This document shows, in pieces, positions 22,960 to 62,970 of a DNA stretch of 64,000 nucleotides (positions are counted from its first letter, which is position 1; every line of letters starts with the position of its first letter). Position numbers and translations under genes: made by a program. Below the pieces are notes generated by a model. That model saw nothing but the letters and a program-made list of their open reading frames with translations. It ran no database searches and was not told the DNA's origin. The stretch covers positions 1,685,001 through 1,749,000 of the forward strand of contig NZ_CP020921.1 of the NCBI RefSeq assembly GCF_003057965.1. The letters are read 5' to 3'. The stretch is from Thermodesulfobium acidiphilum (GTDB lineage Bacteria; Thermodesulfobiota; Thermodesulfobiia; Thermodesulfobiales; Thermodesulfobiaceae).

Positions 22960-22964
22960 ATTAT

Positions 22965-23230
<266 letters not shown>

Positions 23231-62399: not shown

Positions 62400-62675
62400 T
62401 TAAGTTACCACTATAAGTTCTTTGAAAAATAAAAATTTTTTCAAACCAATTCTTGTCTTATTTTTAAGATTTAATTCTTTAGGTATATAAATTTCTATTC
62501 CCTCCTGTTCAAAAACTTTATATGCTATTCCTTCCAAAGGCTCTCCAACTCTAACTGAAGGAGGTAAAGGGACCCTGCTTCAAGAAAAGCAAGACGAAGC
62601 ATTTATAAAAAAAATCTTTGATCCCTTTGATTTTATGTATTCTTTAGCCTCTTTATCAAATTCAAATTTAGGCAT
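62400..62675 (-). CDS. Predicted selenoprotein 2, Cys-x-x-Sec motif (in-frame TGA at codon 32)
   Basis: This is a 91-residue frame with one internal TGA at 62580-62582, read as selenocysteine. GGAGG stands five bases before the ATG. Residues 29-32 are C-F-S-U. After the TGA the frame stays open for 59 codons and holds PPSVRVGEP, IEIYIPKEL and KKFLFFKELIVV. The protein aligns with the gene just upstream: same Cys29 and Sec32, same P-S-V-R-x-G-x-P and Y-(I/V)-P-K. It has no signal peptide. It resembles small proteins I recall as a Cys/Sec-motif seleno-family with a HesB-like look; this was not verified. It overlaps the upstream gene by eight bases and ends one base before the glycosyltransferase ATG. 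Confidence 0.8.
62556..62582 (-). promoter_or_regulatory. Candidate SECIS hairpin of selenoprotein 2
   Basis: The RNA from the TGA onward can fold with TGAAG pairing to CTTCA, a C-C mismatch, then AGG pairing to CCT, around a nine-base loop starting with G. The apical loop begins six bases after the TGA, closer than in E. coli fdhF. It is a plausible bacterial SECIS but would need a model search. Confidence 0.45.
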
Positions 62676-62970
62676 TTTTACCTCCATCTAAAGCATATAT
62701 AAAAATATATTCCTTACCATAGGAACTTGTCTTTGCATCGATCACAAGATCTTTATCGTAAAAAAAATTTTTCGGCACATATACAACAACATCATCAAAA
62801 AATATACAATTATATTTATCAAATTCTTTCTTAGGTCTTCCCCATCTAACTGATGGTATTCCTGAACCAGTCCCTCAAGTGCTACACAACAAATCCCTCG
62901 ATGGCAAGACATATATTTCTTTGCCACTCTTCTCAATTAATTTAATTGCCTTTTTAGTTAAAGATATCAT
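62668..62970 (-). CDS. Predicted selenoprotein 1, Cys-x-x-Sec motif (in-frame TGA at codon 32)
   Basis: This is a 100-residue frame from ATG 62970 to TAA 62668, with a single TGA at 62875-62877. Residues 29-32 are C-S-T-U. The 68 codons after the TGA include GIPSVRWGRP, VVVYVPKNFF and a C-terminal YIFIYALDGG. Codon 32 and the Cys three residues before it match the downstream gene exactly, so this pair is not explained by a random stop or frameshift. No strong ribosome site precedes the ATG. The protein has no signal peptide and is probably a cytoplasmic thiol-selenol redox protein. A different frame here (from 62936) has no such similarity. Confidence 0.78.
62851..62877 (-). promoter_or_regulatory. 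Candidate SECIS hairpin of selenoprotein 1
   Basis: From the TGA onward TGGT pairs with ACCA around an eight-base loop (TCAGGAAT). The TGA itself can pair with TCA, with a five-base bulge between. The TGA-to-TCA span is 27 bases, the same as in the second gene. The stem is weak, so support is modest. Confidence 0.35.

Follow-up and report, generated by a model that had tools for sequence, protein, structure and literature searches.

In fdhF of E. coli, the loop of the SECIS element begins about 17-18 nt from the UGA. A consensus for bacterial SECIS elements forms part of the description of the bSECIS model (PMC13188914) and comprises a stem of 4-16 bp, a loop of 3-9 nt with a G within its first two positions, a distance of 16-37 nt from the UGA and an energy threshold of -7.5 kcal/mol. 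According to the same description, some putative SECIS elements fail the model, and on the ribosome the SECIS becomes unwound in its lower part (PMC13188914). Table 1 of that paper lists NF041239, with the motif CxxU, among the known selenoprotein families; within the accessible text of the literature searched, NF041239 is named in PMC13188914 alone.

The window analysed here is a stretch of 64,000 nucleotides from Thermodesulfobium acidiphilum, whose genome consists of one contig of 1.77 Mb. Our main reading is that two genes on the minus strand of the window, A and B, are small overlapping selenoprotein genes of the CC/Se type (HesB/IscA-like in predicted fold), which would be served by an ordinary SelB and by ordinary SECIS elements with an AGUU loop 23 nt from the UGA, and that a further stem starting at the TGA itself is a by-product. 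We give this reading a probability of roughly 0.85. It is built on computed observations, i.e. the conserved TGA, the family match, the Sec machinery and the conserved loop with its spacing, and from these we infer that SelB binds the hairpins of both genes and that Sec is inserted.

Both genes are whole open reading frames if the TGA is taken as selenocysteine. Gene A (62668..62970, minus strand) encodes a relative of the CC/Se motif proteins of 100 amino acids with the motif CSTU, and its in-frame selenocysteine UGA is located at 62875..62877 (minus strand). Gene B (62400..62687, minus strand), an open reading frame of 95 amino acids with the motif CFSU, has its in-frame UGA at 62580..62582 (minus strand). 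The true start of gene B is likely to be the ATG at 62675 behind GGAGG, giving 91 amino acids, and the stop codon of gene A probably overlaps the gene B start. Orthologs of both genes were found in 4/4 genomes of the phylum (G000-G003, where G000 is the window's genome), with the UGA at the same place in all four for either gene. The internal TGAs of genes A and B very probably encode selenocysteine.

The gene B protein scores 59.4 bits against the NCBIfam model NF041239 ('CC/Se motif family (seleno)protein'), above the curated cut-off of 40, whereas the gene A protein stays below this cut-off with 36.2 bits (E 4.8e-9). Both resemble the family in length, in the CxxU motif and in having Sec or Cys at one position, and judged by its score gene A would be a relative of NF041239 rather than a filed member. 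A Pfam search with genes A and B gave no match at a meaningful score. A Cys paralogue (L017, G000:C1:1065489-1065764), present in 4/4 genomes, carries Cys at the Sec position; it reads IGTC there and so lacks the initial Cys of CxxU.

An AlphaFold2 model of the gene B protein, made from 17 relatives, reached a pLDDT of 81.5, with the stretch around Sec (residues 32-35) poorly predicted. The protein alignment comprised 17 sequences and 122 columns, leaving out three proteins of a further gene, C, and the homolog L064 (both described below). A Foldseek search with the model gave a best E value of 3.4e-3 at a TM of about 0.5 and no match at E of 0.001 or below; ranks 1-5 and 7-10 were IscA, SufA, DsrR and Fe-S biosynthesis entries or structural-genomics entries of that kind. 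Compared with the predicted fold, IscA (1r94) gave a Z of 8.5 and an rmsd of 3.2 over 84 residues at 10% identity, and DsrR (2k4z) a Z of 8.0 and an rmsd of 4.0 over 88 residues. The gene B chain is accordingly modelled as a HesB/IscA fold, which speaks to fold and not to function; in sequence it differs from IscA, SufA and DsrR, with 10-14% identity.

Sec insertion is within the capacity of the host, as selA, selB, selD and tRNA-Sec are all present. The selA gene, and selD with an in-frame TGA of its own, were each found in 4/4 genomes of the phylum, a tRNA-Sec with anticodon UCA was recognised at 77.5 bits, and a formate-dehydrogenase-like gene with an in-frame TGA is carried by G000, G001 and G003. 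About 20 nt separate the tRNA-Sec gene (L009 1501-1594) from selB (L001 1489-3369), which follows it on the same strand. The full-length SelB protein scores 365.1 bits against TIGR00475, above the equivalog cut-off of 242.25, and contains SelB-wing_3 (PF09107) at 57.9 bits (cut-off 23.2). Its last domain aligns over RK...LE..D...FT.R.G with 1wsu, 1lva and 2ply, which we take to be Moorella SelB, and with 2pjp, which we take to be E. coli SelB. In the region before the winged helix no Pfam match above cut-off was found; SelB may have diverged ahead of its last domain, with no hint of altered recognition. The first-pass annotation had suggested a diverged SelB as a possible reader of these elements, which finds no support here: the C-terminal winged helix of the host SelB appears ordinary, with no sign of divergence.

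A hairpin with an AGUU loop follows the UGA in both genes. In gene A the putative apical SECIS hairpin (62842..62856, minus strand) reads CCAUC-AGUUA-GAUGG, as given by folding and 4/4 orthologs, and RNAalifold adds a possible lower stem in which 62863-62861 pair with 62835-62833 (62833..62863, minus strand). For gene B the probable apical hairpin of the SECIS is CUCCUUC-AGUUA-GAG(UU)GGAG at 62543..62563 (minus strand), where loop and closing pairs are found in 4/4 orthologs and in the consensus of A and B. The loop starts 23 nt from the UGA in 8/8 copies of the two genes and reads AGUUA in all of them except two gene B orthologs with AGUUC; an ungapped alignment from the UGA leaves CCxUC-AGUUA/C-GA common to A and B. 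With the eight A and B sequences as input, RNAalifold returned the AGUU hairpin with six pairs (columns 21-26/32-38, -4.86 kcal/mol), and the same hairpin was chosen for gene A alone and, plus a small hairpin upstream, for gene B alone. The fraction of cells paired in it is 96.4% for gene A (32-61% in slid versions) and 92.9% for gene B (43-61%), while the 3-pair core is paired in 24/24 cells as against 4-63% when slid. The 18-nt fold of gene A (62840-62857) has an energy of -6.3 kcal/mol and a z of -3.98, and 0/200 shuffles were as good.

The covariation for the AGUU hairpins comes from two pairs. Pair 24-34 of the A and B consensus is A-U, C-G or U-G, with one two-sided change, and in the lower stem of gene A, RNAalifold found one pair changed on both sides from A-U to U-A (2 and 2 sequences). 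Within the two hairpins 2 of 10 conserved codons differ synonymously among orthologs, outside them 60 of 135, and in the corresponding segment of the Cys paralogue 4/4, all of these being raw counts of small numbers. The comparison with the Cys paralogue points to a constraint beyond the protein. The AGUU bases encode the conserved protein motif PSVR, and therefore part of the AGUU conservation is protein-driven.

Like the elements of the bacterial consensus, those of A and B lie in the coding region 3' of the UGA and have a loop of 5 nt, within the range of 3-9 nt, which shows G then U with the G in the first two positions; the spacing of 23 nt is within 16-37 nt in all copies. The upper stem has 5-7 pairs. 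In gene A these are contiguous (5 in G000 and 7 in G001-G003), within the range of 4-16 bp, and in gene B there are 6-7 pairs with a bulge of 1-2 nt and fewer than 4 contiguous pairs at the AGUU loop. The differences from the consensus are this bulged stem of gene B and the energies, as the window copies do not clearly reach the threshold and gene B of the window falls short of it. The E. coli fdhF element shares the G-U of the loop and the position of the hairpin after the UGA, and it is read by SelB, as those of A and B would be. Compared with fdhF, the loop of A and B stands some 5 nt farther downstream of the UGA, whereas gene C and the fdh genes of the genus have a spacing of 18 nt.

A loop of this type is found throughout the genus. 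We searched at a distance of 16-37 nt from the UGA for an AG(G/U)U loop on a stem of at least 4 pairs that may contain one bulge, a motif chosen post hoc; it is present at 18/18 selenocodons of the genus (4 of A, 4 of B, 3 of C, 4 of selD and 3 of fdh) and, as background, at 67 of the window's 2232 TGAs. Across these five gene families the distance of the loop from the UGA is 18-26 nt: AGUUU at 18 nt in gene C (at least 114 amino acids, CGSU or CGAU), AGGUG at 26 nt in selD, and AGUUUA/G at 18 nt in fdh, where the stem varies between GACC/GGUC and GGCC/GGCC. The fdh set covers 3/4 genomes, the G002 contig beginning inside the gene. Gene C (L027, L028, L029) is a third gene with an in-frame TGA, scoring 24.8 bits to NF041239; it is present in 3/4 genomes and was not found in the window's genome at E 0.001.

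Three homologs with Sec, belonging to another class (L061-L063), have an 8-bp stem with a GGUC loop 17 nt after the UGA. The PSVR motif is lost in these proteins where the hairpin sits, and the RNA element may have displaced it. A fourth such homolog, L064, has its locus cut by a contig end and stands outside the RNA comparison. The class searches gave 1/147 genomes around G178 and 4/9 around G171, and the wide search 7/386. One candidate from a deltaproteobacterial MAG (L032) was dropped, having a 14-residue match and frames without a relative. Pairing of an upstream AACUG/GACUG with the loop CAGUU occurs in 4/4 copies of gene A and 2/3 of gene C and has no counterpart in gene B, selD or fdh; it was set aside because it is not general. 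A scan of the whole window with Rfam at gathering thresholds gave no SECIS family, a result of little weight as Rfam may lack a bacterial SECIS model; the sole Rfam match in the window is a bacterial large SRP RNA at 22964-23230 (plus strand, 155.7 bits).

Single-sequence folding and energy give results against the AGUU hairpin. Over 57 nt, its pair probability in gene B of the window is 0.00-0.01 at both 37 and 55 C, and in gene A of the window it comes to 0.25 (37 C); weak values were also seen for gene B of G001 (0.22-0.35) and gene A of G003 (0.24-0.60). Leaving out the UGA plus the 9 nt behind it, an assumed footprint that mimics the ribosome, raised the probability in gene A to 0.98 and gave no rescue in gene B of the window. 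The 21 bases of the gene B hairpin fold at -3.9 kcal/mol (z -0.68), short of the -7.5 threshold. The gene A hairpin alone has -9.0 kcal/mol in G001 and G002, -6.2 in G003 and -4.7 in G000, and the G000 copy, folded together with its lower stem over the 45 nt that begin 9 nt past the UGA, reaches -7.7 kcal/mol. A strict version of the published model with a contiguous stem misses the AGUU element in all copies of genes B and C, which speaks against claiming that every element passes that model. For gene B of the window our claim is that the element would work like a bacterial SECIS without passing the energy filter, and the case for it is comparative.

The first-pass annotation had suggested a compact hairpin starting at each TGA as a possible SECIS variant. 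A hairpin does follow both TGAs, but the conserved one is not the one starting there. The stem seen in gene B (62556..62582, minus strand) is exactly as it was described: within the 27 bases from 62582 to 62556 there are 5+3 pairs, together with a single C-C mismatch, around a loop of 9 nt whose first base is G. When the window's gene B is folded as a single sequence, no hairpin ranks above this one (-7.3 kcal/mol alone, z -1.37), and it is included in the 80-nt minimum; this favours taking it for a SECIS variant whose loop is near, suited to a diverged SelB. In gene B of the window, single-sequence folding offers no better fold elsewhere, and it is the comparative evidence, with the AGUU hairpin in 8/8 copies, that does. 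At least as good a fold was reached by 19/200 shuffles, and the 5+3 pattern, gene B included, is shown by 5 of the 2232 window TGAs (both strands) at the identical span and by 41 of them at some span of 22-44 nt; the stem is unusual, not striking, and weakly above chance. For gene A the weaker stem (62851..62877, minus strand) holds insofar as 6/9 positions of the equivalent 27 bases pair, but it is unconserved, and these bases have their minimum in a different structure (-4.1 kcal/mol, z 0.18). The complete pattern occurs in 1/4 gene B orthologs, 0/4 gene A orthologs and 0/13 other selenocodons, i.e. 1/21 in total. Pairing that had been expected to persist among homologs decays in gene B from 8 of 9 stem positions in G000 to 7 in G001, 6 in G002 and 5 in G003, with no two-sided change in any pair and no compensation within gene B. 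When A and B are taken together, pair 9-19 does change on both sides (U-A in four A copies, G-C in three B copies), and the covariation score of 0.107 is lower than the scores after a slide of 2 columns (0.223) or 3 (0.375). In gene A the stem pairs 65.6% of cells as against 71.9% after the 3-column slide, and the two pairs of the TGA-adjacent stem that were followed never exceed a probability of 0.09 across the 21 selenocodons (57 nt). The loops were said to be nearer to the TGA than in E. coli, which is true only of this unconserved stem and not of the conserved loop. With the SelB C-terminal domain looking ordinary as well, a TGA-adjacent SECIS variant is, on the comparison with relatives, not supported and extremely improbable.

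In gene B the TGA-adjacent stem shares bases of its 3' arm with the conserved hairpin, namely with the 5' arm and the first loop base of the latter, so that the two structures exclude each other. The stem might in that case compete with the SECIS and tune readthrough in this species only, as the shared bases and the mutual exclusion in G000 would allow, and the AGUU hairpin is disfavoured by folding in gene B of G000 and not of G002 or G003. We nevertheless consider this very unlikely, given that the stem is lost in orthologs, that the shuffles mentioned above fold as well, and that a stem using the UGA could not persist with the UGA in the A site. It is very unlikely that the contest between a UGA-anchored stem and a weakened gene B SECIS makes Sec insertion conditional, e.g. 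on temperature or ribosome spacing. A reading of the TGAs as genuine stops or as errors of sequencing, with the downstream parts separate or dead, would agree with TGA being a normal stop and with gene A scoring below the family cut-off; it is hardly credible in view of the identical TGA codon in 4/4 genomes for both genes, the protein conserved on either side of it, the Cys at the Sec position of the paralogue and the complete Sec machinery. Under the main reading, ordinary SECIS elements in two selenoprotein genes, SelB with Sec-tRNA-Sec would bind the AGUU hairpin, some 23 nt beyond the UGA, as the ribosome reaches that codon. Once the UGA is in the ribosomal A site the TGA-adjacent stem would be opened, and this stem would be a by-product whose 3' arm shares the 5' arm of the conserved hairpin.

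A supposed variant of SECIS and SelB is thereby removed, as the stem picked by eye in one sequence had made use of the conserved element's 5' arm. Two tandem selenoprotein genes of the CC/Se type are recorded, neither of which appears whole in the table-11 list of open reading frames. The genus-wide rule of an AG(U/G)U loop is usable for finding further selenoprotein genes of the genus.
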